Source: an uncultured Chitinophagales bacterium
GTDB taxonomy: Bacteria > Bacteroidota > Bacteroidia > Chitinophagales > Chitinophagaceae
Length of the DNA stretch: 64,000 nt
Assembly (NCBI GenBank): GCA_946886475.1
Contig: CAMPIQ010000002.1
Span: 1-64,000 of the forward strand
Direction of reading: 5' to 3'
The notes under the pieces are model-generated. The model was not told the origin of the DNA, did no database searches, and saw only the letters and a program-made list of their open reading frames with translations. Shown here piece by piece: positions 4,596 through 56,814 of the stretch (its first letter is position 1; the number at the start of each line of letters is the position of its first letter). Both the position numbers and the translations under genes were made by a program.

Positions 4596-4637
4596 AGCTG
4601 CAGGCCGCTGGTTAACGGCTAATGGCTTTCTGCAGCC
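4596..4637 (+). repeat. Degenerate heptad array, RGCYNNT family, downstream of leuS
   Basis: Six consecutive 7-bp units start 5 bp after the leuS stop codon. Central units are GGCTAAT and GGCTTTC. The array runs into the last codons of the convergent gene that ends at 4612. The outer parts also form an inverted repeat, GCTGCAG at 4597-4603 with CTGCAGC at 4630-4636, so the RNA could fold into a hairpin. Confidence 0.6.
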
Positions 4638-14108: not shown

Positions 14109-15143
14109 ATGAATCCCAATCTTAACAAGGACTCCGATAATTTATCGGCAGCGGAAAAGGAATTTGAGAATAACATCCGTCCCCGGGAAATAAAAGAATT
14201 TTCAGGGCAAAGCCAGGTAATCGAAAATCTTATCATTTTTATTAAAGCTGCGAGGATCCGGGGTGAAGCCCTTGATCATGTATTATTTCATGGTCCTCCC
14301 GGCCTGGGAAAAACCACTTTATCAAGAATTGTTGCAAATGAATTGGGTGTAAACATCAGGGAAACTTCAGGTCCGGTTATAGAGAAACCCGGAGATCTGG
14401 CAGGATTACTTACCGGTCTTGAACCGAACGATGTTTTATTTATTGATGAGATACACCGGCTGAGTACGGTGGTGGAAGAATACCTTTATTCTGCCATGGA
14501 AGATTACAAGATCGATATCATGATCGATAGTGGTCCCAATGCAAGAAGCATCCAGATCAACCTCAATCCATTTACGCTTATAGGTGCAACCACAAGAAGC
14601 GGGTTGCTTTCTTCCCCCCTTCTTTCCAGGTTTGCCATCAAGTCAAGACTTGAATATTATAATGCTGAAACCCTTAGAAAGATCATATTAAGATCAGCAG
14701 ATATTTTACAGGTGCCGATTTCACCGGATGCATCTTCCGAAATTGCCAGAAGAAGCCGTGGTACACCACGTATTGCCAACGGCCTGCTTAGAAGAGTAAG
14801 GGATTTTGCACAGGTGTTGAATGATGGTCAGATTGATATCGGGATTACGCAGCATGCACTCAAAGCGCTGAATGTAGACGAACATGGGCTGGATGACATG
14901 GATAACCGGATACTTTCAGCCATCATTGAAAAATTCAAAGGCGGACCTGTTGGTATCACAACCATTGCAACGGCAGTAGGTGAAGAACCCGGAACGCTGG
15001 AAGAAGTGTATGAACCATTCCTGATCCAGGAAGGATTTCTTAAAAGAACGCCCAGGGGGAGAGAAGCAACGCATAAAGCCTATGAGCATCTGGGAAGGAA
15101 ACCTTTCACCGGTTCGGAAGGTCCTGATTTGTTTAATAGCTAA
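14109..15143 (+). CDS. ruvB: Holliday junction branch migration helicase RuvB
   Basis: The hexameric AAA+ motor that, with RuvA, drives branch migration of Holliday junctions in recombination repair. The 344-residue protein has Walker A GPPGLGKT at residues 62-69, Walker B with DEIHR at 113-117, the ATTRSG sensor region near residues 160-165 and a C-terminal winged-helix domain with a KRTPRGR segment. Length and order of domains are normal. ruvA and ruvC are not in the window. The stop codon is directly followed by a heptad array, then the convergent response regulator gene. Confidence 0.98.
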
Positions 15144-15173
15144 TGGCCACCCGGCCATTAGCCAAAAGCCTTC
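15138..15173 (+). repeat. Degenerate heptad array, RGCCAAT family, at the ruvB stop codon
   Basis: Five 7-bp units (for example GGCCATT and AGCCAAA) start within the last codons of ruvB and end just before the stop of the convergent response regulator gene. One extra base at 15152 breaks the phase once. The word matches the arrays near 40408, 46723 and 56787. Confidence 0.7.
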
Positions 15174-15174
15174 C

Positions 15175-15876
15175 TCACACTTCCTGCACTACCAGCCTGA
15201 ACCCGTTTCCATGTATATTAACGATCTCAATATTTGGATCATCCTTCAGGTATTTGCGTAGTTTGGCAATATATACATCCATACTTCTGCCATTAAAATA
15301 AGTATCGCTACCCCAGATTCTTTTTAGTGCCTGCTCACGCGGCAGCAGGTCATTCATATGTTCAGCAAGCATCTTCAGCAATTCATTTTCTTTTGGAGAA
15401 AGGGTTTGCATTTTGCCTGCATGGGAAAGTTCACGCAATTTTGGATTAAAATGATAGGAAGCAAGGTCAAATTCACGATTTTCTGATTCCCGGTTTAACT
15501 CTTCATTACGTTTAAGGATGGCCTTGATCTTATGTAAAAGCACCTCACTGTCAAATGGCTTGGTAATATAATCATCAGCACCCAGTTTATAACCCTGGAT
15601 AATATCTTCTTTCATGGTTTTAGCACTCAAAAAGAATAGAGGAACATCGGGATTGATATCTCTTATTTCTTCCGCCAGGGTAAATCCATCCATATTAGGC
15701 ATCATTACATCCAGCAGGCAGAGGTCGAACGATTCCCTTTGAAAAGCAGCAAGACCAAGACGGCCGTCTCTTTCCAATGTAACATCATAGTCATTCAATT
15801 CCAGGTAATTCTTCAATACACTTCCCAAATTCGGATCGTCTTCGCATAATAAAATTTTAGCTTTCTTGTCTGCCAT
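15175..15876 (-). CDS. OmpR/RprY-type response regulator
   Basis: A 233-residue two-domain transcription regulator. The receiver domain (residues 1-125) has the acidic pair E12-D13-D14, the phosphorylation site D56 in LLDVMMPN, and the ITKPF segment. A winged-helix DNA-binding domain follows (about 135-230) with the LSPKENELL and SMDVYIAKLRKYL motifs typical of the OmpR class, close to Bacteroidota RprY. No histidine kinase gene is adjacent, so the partner must be encoded elsewhere. It is convergent with ruvB. Confidence 0.95.
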   Translation of the reverse strand: MADKKAKILLCEDDPNLGSVLKNYLELNDYDVTLERDGRLGLAAFQRESFDLCLLDVMMPNMDGFTLAEEIRDINPDVPLFFLSAKTMKEDIIQGYKLGADDYITKPFDSEVLLHKIKAILKRNEELNRESENREFDLASYHFNPKLRELSHAGKMQTLSPKENELLKMLAEHMNDLLPREQALKRIWGSDTYFNGRSMDVYIAKLRKYLKDDPNIEIVNIHGNGFRLVVQEV

Positions 15877-19447: not shown

Positions 19448-19475
19448 GGATGATGGCTTTAGGCCTTTAGCCAAT
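19448..19475 (+). repeat. Short heptad array, RGCCAAT family, after the lipoprotein gene
   Basis: Four 7-bp units, the clearest being GGCCTTT (19462-19468) and AGCCAAT (19469-19475), start 8 bp after the stop codon and read in its sense. It belongs to the same word family as the arrays after ruvB, hemH and fabF. Confidence 0.55.
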
Positions 19476-21407: not shown

Positions 21408-21454
21408 AAAATTATTTTGGGTAGAATACCGGGAGGCATTCAAATATCAATAAA

Positions 21455-21563
21455 ATATCGAACACGGAACAAGGAATGGTGATTTGTGAATTGAGGGACC
21501 CGGCGGTTTATTTGAACTTTTTGGGTGCTTTGGTACAATGGAATATCGAGCAGGGAACAAGAA
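21455..21563. repeat. Two heptad blocks of the ATATCGA/ANANGGA type upstream of recQ
   Basis: Block one (21455-21496) has six 7-bp units starting with ATATCGA then ACACGGA. Block two (21543-21563) starts again with ATATCGA and has three units. The two blocks share 20 of 24 positions with a one-base gap and are 46 bp apart. They fill the spacer between recQ and the four-helix-bundle gene. Confidence 0.65.
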
Positions 21564-21599
21564 TTGCTTTTAAGTAAGATGGTCCATGTTTCCGTGGCG

Positions 21600-32809: not shown

Positions 32810-32833
32810 TGTGAAAAGTTGAAATTATACTAA

Positions 32834-33847
<1,014 letters not shown>

Positions 33848-33852
33848 TTAAA

Positions 33853-33946
33853 GTTCAAAGTTCAAAATTAAAAAATGGAAAATGGGCGCTCAGCAAATTC
33901 AAATAACTTTTGAAGTTTACGTTTTTTGCATTTTACATTGTTCATT
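33853..33946 (-). repeat. Heptad-structured spacer between hemF and hemB
   Basis: Two heptad blocks occupy the spacer. In hemF sense the first block starts at its stop codon with three units AATGNAN (33926-33946). The second block, near the hemB start, has two perfect GTTCAAA units on the plus strand (33853-33866) flanked by looser ones. The middle part is too degenerate to call. Confidence 0.6.
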
Positions 33947-39380: not shown

Positions 39381-40409
39381 ATGAGGGCAATAGTTTTAAT
39401 GAACCTCGGATCTCCGGATTCTACAGAGGTTAAAGACGTAAAGCGCTACCTGGATGAATTCCTGATGGATGAAAGGGTGATAGATAAGCCATGGCTTTTG
39501 CGTGCCTTACTTGTAAAGGGCATTATCATTCCATTCCGTGCCCCAAGGTCTGCCGAAGCTTACAGATCCATCTGGACCAGGGAAGGTTCACCATTGATCG
39601 TAATCAGCCGGCAACTGGCTGAGTCATTGGAAAAGGAGATCAAAGAGCCCGTAGTGATAGCCATGAGGTACGGTACGCCATCGCCCAGGGAAGCTTTTGA
39701 TCAACTGGTAAAAGATCATCCGGAACTGGATGAGGTGATCCTGATCCCCATGTATCCCCATTATGCCATGAGCAGTTATGAAACGGCGGTGGAGTACGCT
39801 AAAGAACAGTATAATAAGGGCCGGTATACATTCAAAATGACAACTATCCGGCCTTATTATGACAATGAAGCCTACATTGATGCATTAACTGAAAGTATCC
39901 GGACACACCTTACTGGTGAGTGGGACCATATCCTGTTTTCTTATCATGGTGTTCCTGAAAGGCATATTTATAAAGGAGATGTTACCGGAGCACATTGTTT
40001 AAAAGTTCAGGATTGTTGCGAATCTTCTTCACCTGCACATCAGTATTGTTACCGTCATCAATGTCTGGTCACTACTAAAATGGTGACAGACCGGTTGAAC
40101 ATACCAAAGGACAAATGGACACAATCATTCCAGTCAAGATTAGGAAGGGATCCATGGCTTCAGCCATATACAGCTGCTAAATTAGAAGCGCTGCCCAAGT
40201 TGGGTATCAAAAAATTGTTAGTGGTTTGTCCTGCTTTTGTCAGTGATTGCCTGGAAACACTTGAGGAAATAGCTGAAGAAGGAAAGGAAATATTCCTCCA
40301 TAATGGCGGGGAGAAATTTGAAATGATTCCATGTTTAAATGTGCATCCATTATGGGTGGCTGCTATGAAAAAATGGATTCTGGAGGGGGATATGGTTATT
40401 AATCTATAG
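39381..40409 (+). CDS. hemH: Ferrochelatase with cysteine-rich segment
   Basis: Inserts ferrous iron into the porphyrin ring. The 342-residue protein has VLMNLGSPDS at the N-terminus, the catalytic His 189 in SYHGVPERH and the LETLEE segment with the catalytic Glu near 292. After GD (199-200), where most members continue with about 5 residues to a single Cys, this protein has a longer stretch with Cys at 206, 212, 213, 223 and 228. Such a cluster could bind an Fe-S centre or metal. It lies 54 bp before hemJ. Confidence 0.96.
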   Translation: MRAIVLMNLGSPDSTEVKDVKRYLDEFLMDERVIDKPWLLRALLVKGIIIPFRAPRSAEAYRSIWTREGSPLIVISRQLAESLEKEIKEPVVIAMRYGTPSPREAFDQLVKDHPELDEVILIPMYPHYAMSSYETAVEYAKEQYNKGRYTFKMTTIRPYYDNEAYIDALTESIRTHLTGEWDHILFSYHGVPERHIYKGDVTGAHCLKVQDCCESSSPAHQYCYRHQCLVTTKMVTDRLNIPKDKWTQSFQSRLGRDPWLQPYTAAKLEALPKLGIKKLLVVCPAFVSDCLETLEEIAEEGKEIFLHNGGEKFEMIPCLNVHPLWVAAMKKWILEGDMVINL

Positions 40410-40442
40410 CCGATAGCCAATGGCCTTTAGCCGATGGCGCTT
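40408..40442 (+). repeat. Heptad array, RGCCRAT family, between hemH and hemJ
   Basis: Five exact 7-bp steps starting inside the hemH stop codon; units include AGCCGAT (twice) and AGCCAAT. It fills most of the spacer up to the hemJ start and reads in hemH sense. Confidence 0.8.
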
Positions 40443-40463
40443 TCGAAAAACAATTATTCAAAA

Positions 40464-41018
40464 ATGTACCTCTATCTAAAAGCCCTTCATATCATTTTCA
40501 TCGTTACCTGGTTTGCGGGTATGTTTTACATTGTGCGTCTTTTCATTTATAATACCGAAGCAAATCAAAAACCGGCGCTGGAAAGATCCATCCTGCAATC
40601 GCAATTAAGTATTATGATCAAAAGACTTTGGTTTGGTATTACCTGGCCATCTGCCATTCTTACTCTGATACTGGGCCCCTGGGTGATGTTTCATCCCGAT
40701 GCACAATGGTATAGGGTACTGGGAGAAGCTTCCGGAAACTGGCTGCTCATCAAACTGGTATTTGTATTTCTTTTGTACATCTATCATTTCACACTTCACA
40801 GGATATATAAGCAGGAAGCAAAAGGTGTCTTCAAATATTCATCGCAGCAATTGCGTATCTGGAATGAAGTTGCAACAATTTTACTGGTGGCCATAGTAAT
40901 GCTGGCAACGGTGAAGTCAGCTATGAGCTGGATCTGGGGTCTGGCAGGGTTGATTGCATTCATCATCCTTATCATGAGTGCGGTCAGGATCTATAAATCA
41001 TTAAGAAAAAACACCTGA
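40464..41018 (+). CDS. hemJ: Protoporphyrinogen IX oxidase HemJ
   Basis: A 184-residue membrane protein that oxidises protoporphyrinogen IX to protoporphyrin IX in bacteria lacking HemG and HemY. Its N-terminus (LKALHIIFIVTWFAGMFY) is diagnostic of the family, with the conserved His at residue 9. Four membrane helices are visible. The ATG at 40464 gives this standard start; an earlier ATG at 40434 lies inside the repeat array and is unlikely. With this gene the pathway from glutamyl-tRNA to heme is complete in this window. Confidence 0.93.
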   Translation: MYLYLKALHIIFIVTWFAGMFYIVRLFIYNTEANQKPALERSILQSQLSIMIKRLWFGITWPSAILTLILGPWVMFHPDAQWYRVLGEASGNWLLIKLVFVFLLYIYHFTLHRIYKQEAKGVFKYSSQQLRIWNEVATILLVAIVMLATVKSAMSWIWGLAGLIAFIILIMSAVRIYKSLRKNT

Positions 41019-41019
41019 C

Positions 41020-42219
41020 CTATTGATCAGCATACTGCAGTTCTTCTTTATTGATGGTCACTTCAGCATTCAGTTTTTTCTTTTTCCTTGTTCTGTTGAT
41101 CCACATGATAGTTCCTGTAATAGGGAAAGTAACTCCAAGCAAACAAACTATAAAAGCTATGATCTTTGATGGCGTACCCCAGATGCTACCTGTGTGTATG
41201 GGTTTGAAGGAAGACCTGACCTGCGCACCAAGGCTGCGTTCTCCAAAATCCAAACTGCCTAAAACTTTTCCTGAGTACTGGTCAATATAAACAGCGTCTG
41301 TGGCCGATTCATGCATGGCATTCTTACTCAGCGATGAAACATTCACTGCATCAACAGAATCTTTTGGCAATGAAATAGTATAATATTCTGCCTCTTCATA
41401 AACCGTTCTGGCAGATGCAAGCGCCTCATCCAATGATATTTTCTTTGTGGATGCTACATAGGTTGATTTAGGGGGAGGAGCTTGTTTGAGGGGAGAATTG
41501 GTAACGGTATAAATTCCTTTATTAAACCATTCGAATGACCAGGCCAGCCCGGTGAATGAAAAAATGAACAGGAATATGGCGCTGTAAAATCCAAATACCA
41601 GGTGCAGGTCGTGGTTCATGCGTTTCCATCCGGCCGACCATTTGATCTTTAACCGTTGCTTTAGTATTTTTTTAGTTTTCGGCCACCAGAGAATGATCCC
41701 AGTTATCAGAATGAACAAAAATATAAGGGTACTGATACCTACAATGTATTTTCCAATTCCATTATTACTTCCCAATAACCAGCGGTGTAATGCAAATACC
41801 TGGTAAAACCAGGTGTCGCGGTAACTGTATTTTTCCAGGATCTGTGCGGTATAGGGATTTATAAAAATAGTATAACCTGGTTGTCTTTGGGGTGCAGCAG
41901 ATCTTATATTGGCCGCAGCATTGTTTGACTGCTCTTTTTTTGGAGCAATGGTGATATTTATTTCTGCAGATCTTTTGGGATCTTCATAAATTTTAACTGA
42001 ATTGATCTTTGCACCCTGGAAGCTGTCCTTTACTTTTTTTACAAGTTGGTCAGCCGAAATTTTCACCGGCCATTCATCAACATAATAACGTTGCTTATTA
42101 GTAGCCATCATCAGGTCTTTCTCAAACACCAAAAGGGCGCCTGTGAGGCAGCAAACCAGTATCACAAGTCCTGCAGAAAGGCCGAGGTATAGATGTATGC
42201 GTCTGAAAAAAATCTTCAT
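41020..42219 (-). CDS. PepSY-associated membrane protein (siderophore-linked reductase type)
   Basis: A 399-residue protein with four membrane helices (about 12-33, 150-172, 205-227, 340-362) and PepSY-type domains in between. This is the PepSY_TM group often found next to TonB-dependent siderophore receptors and thought to act in release or reduction of ferric iron in the periplasm. It lies 66 bp downstream of such a receptor on the same strand, although a terminator-like hairpin separates the two. It ends 1 bp from the convergent hemJ. Confidence 0.9.
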   Translation of the reverse strand: MKIFFRRIHLYLGLSAGLVILVCCLTGALLVFEKDLMMATNKQRYYVDEWPVKISADQLVKKVKDSFQGAKINSVKIYEDPKRSAEINITIAPKKEQSNNAAANIRSAAPQRQPGYTIFINPYTAQILEKYSYRDTWFYQVFALHRWLLGSNNGIGKYIVGISTLIFLFILITGIILWWPKTKKILKQRLKIKWSAGWKRMNHDLHLVFGFYSAIFLFIFSFTGLAWSFEWFNKGIYTVTNSPLKQAPPPKSTYVASTKKISLDEALASARTVYEEAEYYTISLPKDSVDAVNVSSLSKNAMHESATDAVYIDQYSGKVLGSLDFGERSLGAQVRSSFKPIHTGSIWGTPSKIIAFIVCLLGVTFPITGTIMWINRTRKKKKLNAEVTINKEELQYADQ

Positions 42220-46722: not shown

Positions 46723-46757
46723 AGCTGCCTGCCAATAGCCAATAGCCATTGGCTTTT
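46723..46757 (+). repeat. Heptad array, RGCCAAT family, upstream of ileS
   Basis: Five 7-bp steps with AGCCAAT and AGCCATT as the best units. Unlike the other members it lies between two divergent genes and ends 4 bp before the predicted ileS promoter box. Confidence 0.7.
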
Positions 46758-46761
46758 TTCT

Positions 46762-46769
46762 TACCTTTG
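46762..46769 (+). promoter_or_regulatory. Predicted -7 promoter box of ileS
   Basis: TACCTTTG matches TAnnTTTG and lies 33 bp before the ATG at 46803, supporting that start over an in-frame TTG at 46749, which lies upstream of this box. Confidence 0.6.
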
Positions 46770-52204: not shown

Positions 52205-52885
52205 ATGAGAAAAATGCGAATACTTTCTCTTTTATTGCTTGCCATAGTTTTCCTTGCTGCGAGTTGTGCTAAAGAAGGTCCTGTAGGTCCCGCAGGTTCT
52301 ACCGGTCCACAAGGCCCTCCCGGATCTGCCGGTTCAGCAGGTGCAACCGGTGCCGTAGGTCCCATTGGTCCACAGGGTCCGCAAGGTCCAACAGGTCCCC
52401 AGGGTCCACAGGGTCCTGCCGGTACAGCCAATGTAATTTATTCAGACTGGTTTGCGGCCAATACCCTTACATGGGCCGATTCAACACATACCGATCTTGG
52501 AACCATCAGCCGTGGTAACAAAGCAGCGCCTGGTGTTACAGCTGCTGTTTTAAGCAATGGAATTGTGCTTTCTTATTACAGAAGTACAACTGCAGGAACA
52601 ACGCAGCTGCCATATATATTTGGAACAACTGCCAGCCTGATGCAGTATGGTTCTATATTGAACACGGGTACCATCACTTATTATGTTGCCAACCAGACCA
52701 GCGGAACTGCAACCGGTGCCATGCCATCAGGCGAGTACCGTTATGTAGTGATCCCCGGCAGTGTAGGTGGCGGAAGATTTATGCAGGGTGCAGCAGCAAA
52801 TTATACAATTGACCAGTTGCGCAACATGAGTTATGAGCAGGTATTGCAATTATTCCGCATTCCTGCAAGAGGGTCGAATGGATGA
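52205..52885 (+). CDS. Lipoprotein with collagen-like repeat
   Basis: A 226-residue lipoprotein: signal with lipobox LAASC (Cys 21), then 17 uninterrupted Gly-X-Y triplets (residues 25-75) rich in Pro and Gln, then a globular C-terminal domain of about 145 residues with many Thr and Gly and several predicted strands. The Gly-X-Y block predicts a collagen-like triple helix, so the protein is probably a trimeric surface stalk with a head domain. The function of the head is not recognised. A terminator follows 24 bp after the stop. Confidence 0.88.
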
Positions 52886-54559: not shown

Positions 54560-54594
54560 GCTCACAACTCGCATCTCACAACTCACAACTCCTT
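54560..54594 (-). repeat. Five-unit heptad array, GAGTTGY family, at the GNAT stop codon
   Basis: On the plus strand the units read RCTCACA; on the minus strand, the sense of the GNAT gene, they read TGTGAGT/GAGTTGT. The array starts in the last codons of the gene and continues past its stop at 54583. It is the same word family as 53604-53652, in the opposite orientation, matching the opposite gene direction. Confidence 0.75.
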
Positions 54595-55011
54595 CTCCAT
54601 TACATAATGCGGGATCGTGATTTCCTCAAACTCATTGCCTATTTTCCGGTAGCCCATTTTTTCATAAAAGCCAACGGCATTTTTTCGGGCATGCATAGTG
54701 ATCTTTCTATAACCCCTGTCCCGGGCCAGGTTTTCTGCAAACTGCATGAGAGCCCTTCCAATTCCTTTGCCCTGGAGGTCGTTGATCACGGCCATCTGCC
54801 TTAAGCGCACCGTCTGGGGTTCTTCTTCAACCAGCATACAGCAGCCAAGCATGTGATCATCTTCAAATGCAGCAATATGAAGGTTTTGTTTTTCCTGTTC
54901 AAGTTCTTCATTTGTAAAATTCAATCCGAGTGGCTGACGCAATATTTCATTACGCAGCCTGATTACCTGCTGATATTCCACCGTTCCATGATCTATGATT
55001 TTCAATGCCAT
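54583..55011 (-). CDS. GNAT family N-acetyltransferase
   Basis: A 142-residue acetyl-CoA-dependent transferase of the ElaA/YjcF-like subgroup. The acetyl-CoA site is seen in LRQMAVINDLQGKGIGRALM (quoted up to 20 residues), with the Q/RxxGxG/A pattern at QGKGIG, and a VGFYEKMGY segment follows. The substrate cannot be told. The last four residues and the stop lie inside a heptad array. Confidence 0.88.
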   Translation of the reverse strand: MALKIIDHGTVEYQQVIRLRNEILRQPLGLNFTNEELEQEKQNLHIAAFEDDHMLGCCMLVEEEPQTVRLRQMAVINDLQGKGIGRALMQFAENLARDRGYRKITMHARKNAVGFYEKMGYRKIGNEFEEITIPHYVMEKEL

Positions 55012-56786: not shown

Positions 56787-56814
56787 AGCCAAAGGCCAGA
56801 GGCTAATAGCCAAT
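56787..56814 (+). repeat. Heptad array, RGCYAAT family, between fabF and rnc
   Basis: Four exact 7-bp steps start 3 bp after the fabF stop codon, including GGCTAAT and AGCCAAT. It reads in fabF sense. Confidence 0.75.

Follow-up and report, generated by a model that had tools for sequence, protein, structure and literature searches.

Short tandem arrays with a period of seven bases lie between genes in the window, that is, the whole stretch of 64,000 nucleotides analysed (contig CAMPIQ010000002.1 of an uncultured Chitinophagales bacterium), and in its relatives, where different gaps and different species carry different repeated words. There is roughly an even chance that these arrays constitute a fast-turning intergenic class of heptamers that grow by slippage, are mirrored by template switching and are tolerated at gene ends.

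The window spacers were scored at lag 7 (match 1, mismatch -1.2) and hold seven arrays with a score of at least 9, compared with a mean of 0.20 and a maximum of 2 in 200 sets of dinucleotide shuffles; period 7 is therefore real in the window, and the shuffles reject chance as the source of its arrays for the window as a whole. At a threshold of 13, three arrays are left at lag 7 and none at the other lags from 4 to 12. Two further lag-7 arrays are found within called genes, at 41062 (score 9.6) and 63670 (9.0). The arrays of the spacers, together with the hemH-hemJ gap, are as follows.

21460..21493, plus strand: weak GGAACAA / GTGATTT array in spacer 21444-21599 (lag-7 score 9.4), with partner 6-mers at 21590.
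32832..32881, minus strand: AAGACTA array, the strongest of the window (lag-7 score 25.4; TRF 63), overlapping the 3' end of the minus-strand gene 32864-33844.
33845..33885, plus strand: AAGTTCA / AAAATGG array (lag-7 score 18.6) at the left edge of spacer 33845-33945, on the start side of the minus-strand gene 32864-33844.
33924..33946, plus strand: weaker array (lag-7 score 9.4) at the opposite edge of spacer 33845-33945, with short inverted matches (partner 6-mers) to the left array.
40406..40437, plus strand: array of the hemH-hemJ spacer, units TAGCCGA TAGCCAA TGGCCTT TAGCCGA TGGC.
40410..40463, plus strand: likely true hemH-hemJ spacer, with the hemJ start at 40464 as in relatives.
46731..46762, plus strand: array upstream of ileS, GCCAATA x2.6 (lag-7 score 11.8; TRF 36; fold z -0.85).
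54561..54591, minus strand: CTCACAA array, GAGTTGT when read into the spacer (lag-7 score 15.2; TRF 48), at the 3' end of the minus-strand gene 54583-55011.

In a profile search of the window genes, leuS, ruvB, hemH, ileS, fabF and mtnA passed their family-model cutoffs, hemH as a match to TIGR00109; its protein is 79% identical to those of Flavisolibacter nicotianae and F. longurius, and 81% to those of the congeners G019 and G015. These identities place the source of the window among the Flavisolibacter-like Chitinophagaceae. The sole match of the gene after hemH is HemJ (TIGR00701, 109.1 bits, below the cutoff of 138.05). This gene probably starts at the ATG at 40464 (MYLYLKALHIIF...) and not at 40434, to judge from relatives, which begin with the same sequence, and this start would place the hemH array inside a 54-bp spacer, not partly within hemJ. 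The array scores 9.0 over 40406-40432, folds weakly (z -2.08) and holds the hemH stop codon (TAG, 40407-40409) in its first unit. Upstream of ileS, in the divergent mtnA-ileS spacer, the array passes over into a copy that is self-complementary and into a T run (AGCCATTGGCTTTTTT). Inverted partners are weak or absent in the array spacers of the window. An Rfam search of the window and of three further loci (L243-L245) found three tRNAs only, all in L245. Nine-base repeats (GGTCCACAG) at 52358-52416 lie inside the open reading frame 52205-52885 and have a coding-type period.

Six arrays had been named before, of which those at hemH and upstream of ileS stand as arrays. The other four (lag-7 scores of 4.6-6.8) are indistinguishable from chance period-7 sequence, since shuffled spacers yield 1.4 arrays with a score of at least 7 per set. 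The earlier list also omitted the strongest arrays (32832, 33845 and 54561), which use other words, as well as those at 21460 and 33924. The four sites are the following.

4596..4637, plus strand: leuS site (lag-7 score 6.6, not significant; fold z -1.62), a weak hairpin that reaches over the 20-bp convergent gap into the end of the following gene.
15139..15162, plus strand: ruvB site, a perfect 10-bp hairpin GCTAATGGCC-ACCC-GGCCATTAGC (lag-7 score 5.6) between the convergent ruvB and response-regulator gene 15175-15876; fold z -5.85, with 0 of 200 shuffles as good.
19448..19475, plus strand: lipoprotein-gene site (lag-7 score 4.6, not significant; lag-8 score 6.0; fold z -0.81).
56787..56814, plus strand: fabF site (lag-7 score 6.8, not significant alone; fold z -0.63).

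Breadth and placement were studied in relatives, in eight sets covering 3.25 Mb and 2013 spacers of at least 20 bp, 150 of them with an array. Three discovery genomes (Cnuella takakiae, F. longurius and Longitalea arenae) contributed 20 stretches of 20 kb and one locus each. A further set, here called the Flavobacteriia set, comprises 40 distant loci (L041-L080), mostly from Flavobacteriia and other Bacteroidota with a few other names, and the genomes G015, G025, G102 and G007, the last two Chitinophaga, served for validation. Period 7 is the commonest short period in seven of the eight sets. Cnuella, F. longurius and Longitalea hold 32, 44 and 51 lag-7 arrays, respectively, whereas each of the lags 4-6 and 9-13 gives 0-5; counts are high again at 14 and 21, the multiples of 7. 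In the Flavobacteriia set, 25 arrays at lag 7 compare with 0-6 at the other lags from 4 to 13, and G015, G025 and G102 have 18, 29 and 13 lag-7 arrays. The exception is Chitinophaga G007, with two in 200 kb, below its lag-8 count of five. None was found in 200 kb of E. coli. The period had been described as exact, which is too strong for the class: lag 7 does lead, but lag 8 comes second in some relatives (7 arrays in Cnuella, 9 in F. longurius and 29 in Longitalea). The arrays of the relatives are short and degenerate (median 5.3 units).

Perfect dimers give 11-23 distinct words in each of five genomes, 2 in G102 and 1 in G007. RGCCAAT, previously proposed as the one shared word, occurs 30 times in the window (31.4 expected) and, given the many words of the relatives, is rejected as a common signal. 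It is weakly enriched in the window spacers (7 versus 2.8 expected, a count reached in 8 of 300 shuffles), and it forms arrays again in F. longurius and Cnuella. One spacer of a Chitinophagales MAG (L003, 3108-3265) carries ATGGTCA repeated perfectly 22 times. In Longitalea arenae (G005), the backwards control of CCGRTAA type gave 787 matches with at most two mismatches, and CCGGTAA-type arrays are very abundant.

Across the eight relative sets, 186 of 214 arrays lie mainly in intergenic spacers, which make up 11.7% of the bases. An array edge lies within 10 bp of 68 of 1942 stop boundaries and of 26 of 2084 start boundaries, and 90 arrays, counted on their own side, contact a boundary, versus 33.1 of 186 under random placement in their own spacers. 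Pooled array density is highest in convergent spacers (0.77 per kb), followed by tandem (0.50) and divergent ones (0.29); G025 departs from this trend, with 0.52 in divergent and 0.43 in convergent spacers. The tie to stop codons suggested earlier applies to the pooled relatives and is rejected as a law: only 3 of 24 arrays in G025 lie near any edge, whereas stops and starts are contacted four and five times in G015 and seven times each in the Flavobacteriia set. Arrays that touch a stop codon often contain it, as does, by eye, the array at the hemH stop in about nine of 17 congeners (the hemH end was found in 17 of 18). Copying of the stop codon into the array was considered and rejected: by offset, F. 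longurius peaks at 7 (0.052; others 0.004-0.043), Longitalea at 8 and 16 (0.061 and 0.073), and Cnuella gives no such signal.

The arrays also possess a strand polarity. When the strongest array of each spacer, at most 60 bp from an edge, is read from the nearer gene edge into the gap, G exceeds C in 96 spacers, is lower in 20 and equal in 11 (127 spacers, pooled relatives), while array-free spacers are only slightly G-richer inward (709:544, 57%). In the pooled data the rule applies at stops as well as at starts and hence is not tied to the direction of transcription; reading in the sense of the adjacent gene, once put forward as the rule, is not upheld. Cnuella (17:0), F. longurius (24:1) and the Flavobacteriia set (17:1) follow the polarity cleanly. 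Longitalea (20:8), G015 (10:3) and G025 (7:2) follow it loosely, G007 (1:1) does not, and G102 (0:4) runs the other way. The polarity is thus no law, being clean in two of the three discovery genomes and weak at the stops of Longitalea (10 of 19); stop-side counts in the validation genomes are mixed (G015 2:3, G025 7:0, G102 0:5).

An explicit inverted partner arm is present in 73 of 141 array spacers from seven samples, and none was detected in the other 68. Sharing of 7-mers between the two halves of a spacer, inverted versus direct, amounts to 6.31 versus 1.06 in Cnuella, 3.85 versus 1.15 in F. longurius, 8.08 versus 0.42 in G015, 4.30 versus 1.00 in G025 and 9.29 versus 0.43 in G102, with sharing between different spacers at 1.73, 1.37, 0.83, 1.87 and 6.60, respectively. 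Longitalea is the exception (inverted 3.20, direct 5.36, between spacers 1.81) and speaks against a model of mirrored arms. G007, with two array spacers only, gives 1.50, 0.00 and 2.00. Among the six genomes with more than two array spacers, inverted sharing exceeds direct sharing in five and sharing between spacers in all six. In array-free spacers, too, inverted exceeds direct sharing, at lower values (inverted 1.60-3.05 and direct 1.02-1.49; e.g., 2.58 versus 1.16 in Cnuella and 1.60 versus 1.02 in G015), an excess that ordinary terminators would give. Shifting the register by 7 or 14 also leaves opposite arms well matched.

The words turn over between species. At the hemH 3' end or in the hemH-hemJ gap, AGCCAAT is found here, GTGAATG, TTTTACA, AAGTTCA and others in congeners, and no array in some of them. 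A gap-by-gap comparison of Chitinophaga G102 and G007, about 90% identical over 189 kb of alignments, covered 120 orthologous spacers, eight of which carry an array (two in both, six in G102 alone and none in G007 alone). Median spacer identity is 0.64 for these eight versus 0.92 for the 112 others; identity falls below 0.5 in 2 of the 8 array spacers and in 11 of the 112 array-free ones, a point against the origin proposed below. One convergent gap contains an ordinary terminator in G007 and an ATTACGA-armed palindrome in G102. Three gaps were followed through Chitinophaga, with 23, 30 and 24 of 30 loci resolved; by eye, plain terminators, multi-word heptamer arms and longer-step arms (GCAAAG, GATTA) replace one another, and in a few species an intact intrinsic terminator is enclosed by heptamer arms (L316, L285). 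The longer-step arms (about 8-9 bases by eye) form spacer-wide inverted repeats in Chitinophaga (GCAAAG in L201-L203 and L325; GATTA in L216, L320 and L322) and sit in the same gaps as the heptamer elements. In Cnuella (L082, L084, L090), a second dispersed inverted element, GTCATGCCGAACTTGTTTCGGCATC, lies within several heptamer-bearing spacers.

For the origin of the arrays we infer slippage, template switching and, as the cause of their placement, tolerance rather than benefit. Strand slippage would duplicate a 7-base unit, and the array would lengthen by copying a neighbouring unit while drifting. A template switch at the fork could then copy the array as its reverse complement across the gap, and such mirrored copying would turn many spacers into one large inverted repeat. 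Growth would be free only where it damages neither coding nor promoter sequence, gene edges acting as walls; these limits would explain why arrays gather at stop codons and in convergent spacers, some of them supplying the stop. Slippage growth followed by drift, as suggested in the first-pass annotation, fits half of the genomes examined: between lags 7 and 35, unit identity drops from 0.81 to 0.70 in 15 arrays of Cnuella, from 0.74 to 0.65 in 17 of F. longurius and from 0.74 to 0.58 in six of G025, neighbouring units being more alike than distant ones, a mark of stepwise copying. No such decay is found in Longitalea, G015 and G102, which argues against stepwise growth there. Mirrored arms within the same gap suggest template switching, a process reported, in the accessible part of the source, to make hairpins in one event (PMC8794818). 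Template switching alone leaves the G-rich polarity unexplained.

The arms might instead be functional 3'-end hairpins: paired in the transcript, they would halt RNA polymerase or shield the 3' end of the RNA, and selection would keep the pairing and not the sequence. We consider this possible but doubtful. Convergent gaps are the favourite sites of the arrays, so a role at transcript ends is still conceivable; a plain intrinsic terminator stands in a sister species where another has an armed palindrome, and one pair-preserving double change was seen by eye at locus A (L281 versus L282). Between tandem genes, folding is also better in array spacers (mean z -2.51, n=35) than in array-free ones (-1.54, n=164; 250 of 489 array-free spacers entered the fold comparison), but between convergent genes it is no better (-2.83, n=15, versus -4.31, n=40). 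Of the 73 paired arrays, 4 have a terminator-like hairpin between their arms, with a few more by eye; such hairpins are rarer in tandem spacers with arrays (6 of 86) than without (80 of 673), and equally frequent in convergent ones (12 of 35 versus 66 of 192). The many array spacers with no detected partner arm, and the strong fold at ruvB alone among nine window stretches, weigh against such hairpins as well. As intrinsic terminators proper, i.e., a GC-rich hairpin with a U tract, the arrays are rejected: their stems have no marked U tract, and plain terminator stems lack the G-rich polarity of the arrays. Less probable still, and in our view unlikely, is a dispersed mobile palindrome of REP or MITE type, the arms being the ends of a non-autonomous element that lands between genes. 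G102 (L311), G101, G055 and G038, of the same genus, do have a dispersed ATTACGA-armed palindrome with a common core like GAGGGCTTTC...GGTTACTAAGTAACC...GAAAGCCCTC, present at many sites per genome, about 79-93% identical among the matches listed and self-matching on both strands. In G102, 28 of 36 array-spacer pairs are similar through this shared core; its arms thus belong to a repeat that spreads rather than growing in place, which runs against growth by slippage. In the Flavisolibacter-like genomes, by contrast, words vary from spacer to spacer and few array spacers are alike (similar pairs: 20 of 210 in Cnuella, 72 of 465 in F. longurius, 7 of 120 in G015 and 16 of 91 in G025). Arms often touch gene ends, and two replaced gaps, by eye, lost the old terminator instead of keeping it beside an insert.

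Three other readings have little to recommend them. G-quadruplex elements, as in Xanthomonas and Nostoc, would match in placement and strand rule, as far as the excerpts of Rehm et al. 2015 go (PMC4692102), but four GGG or CCC tracts, the criterion applied (two-tier quadruplexes fall outside it), occur in only 3 of 214 arrays, and this is the least credible of the explanations. Back-up stop codons, placed by a period of seven in all three frames behind a gene, are scarcely more probable: both other frames are stopped within 30 nt in 23 of 84 stop-touching arrays versus 221 of 1350 other genes, but most arrays lack this property, the genomes differ (0 of 8 in G102, 1 of 7 in G025) and start codons are touched by arrays too. 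Improbable, though somewhat less so, is a general process common to Bacteroidota, Xanthomonas and cyanobacteria that extends gene-edge DNA with G-rich units of 7, sometimes 8, bases and in which quadruplexes are irrelevant. A slipping or self-templating polymerase would extend intergenic breaks or stalled 3' ends, followed by rejoining; the G-strand running into the gap from both sides would match, in polarity, a head-to-head junction of two telomere-like ends.

Tandem heptanucleotides are known from cyanobacteria as STRR heptamers. Rehm et al. 2015 (PMC4692102), in the parts available, describe G-rich heptamers (GGGAATC / GGGGA(C/T)T) in Xanthomonas and Nostoc that form quadruplexes in vitro, lie either at most 50 bp from stops, on the sense strand, or, on the antisense strand, upstream of genes, and in 83% of cases are kept in the same gene context while length and sequence vary. 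Those repeats and the present arrays share 7-nt tandem units, an intergenic location, depletion between divergent genes (G025 excepted), an occasional overlap with the stop codon and frequent inverted pairs (here 73 of 141), and the strand rule holds here by 96:20, failing in G102 and G007. The two differ in that the accessible text gives one consensus word per genome studied (others may exist there), whereas many words occur per genome here; quadruplex-type tracts are almost absent here, and words swap between sister species, while the repeats of Rehm et al. mostly keep their gene context. According to the excerpts of MacGregor 2015 (PMC4679880), TAACTGA direct repeats, along with other heptamers, occur in Beggiatoaceae, cyanobacteria and five Bacteroidetes, which corrects the initial impression that no such arrays had been described in Bacteroidota. 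They resemble ours in being heptamers between genes, accompanied in some gaps by other heptamers, but consist of one fixed word, mostly just upstream of starts, whereas stop contacts prevail here (68 versus 26). Mrazek 2007, as quoted in both papers, found long simple sequence repeats with an excess of unit 7 and proposed polymerase slippage; those are runs longer than expected, while the arrays here are short and degenerate. REP / BIME elements (PMC3733652) are extragenic palindromes proposed for termination and mRNA stability, CGTC-tagged ones occurring in Bacteroidetes; arrays with arms are likewise palindromic and extragenic, but 7-base units are not described for REP / BIME in the accessible part of that source. 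On the evidence of these excerpts, the kind of repeat is thus already known, also in Bacteroidota (PMC4692102, PMC4679880). The open-licence literature, as far as its accessible text goes, yielded no recognised description of many-worded, word-swapping arrays in Bacteroidota, which is not proof of absence, and a search with array sequence strings matched no paper.

The new point is that the anatomy reported by Rehm et al. holds in Bacteroidota, with exceptions, where four GGG tracts occur in no more than 3 of 214 arrays. Such placement and polarity in words mostly without quadruplex G tracts suggest one underlying cause, in the simplest case a mutational process that advances in steps of seven bases. 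A repeated word that changes from gap to gap and from species to species bears on how heptamer repeats arise, and sister Chitinophaga with a plain terminator or an armed palindrome in the same gap provide a system for watching the birth of large intergenic hairpins.
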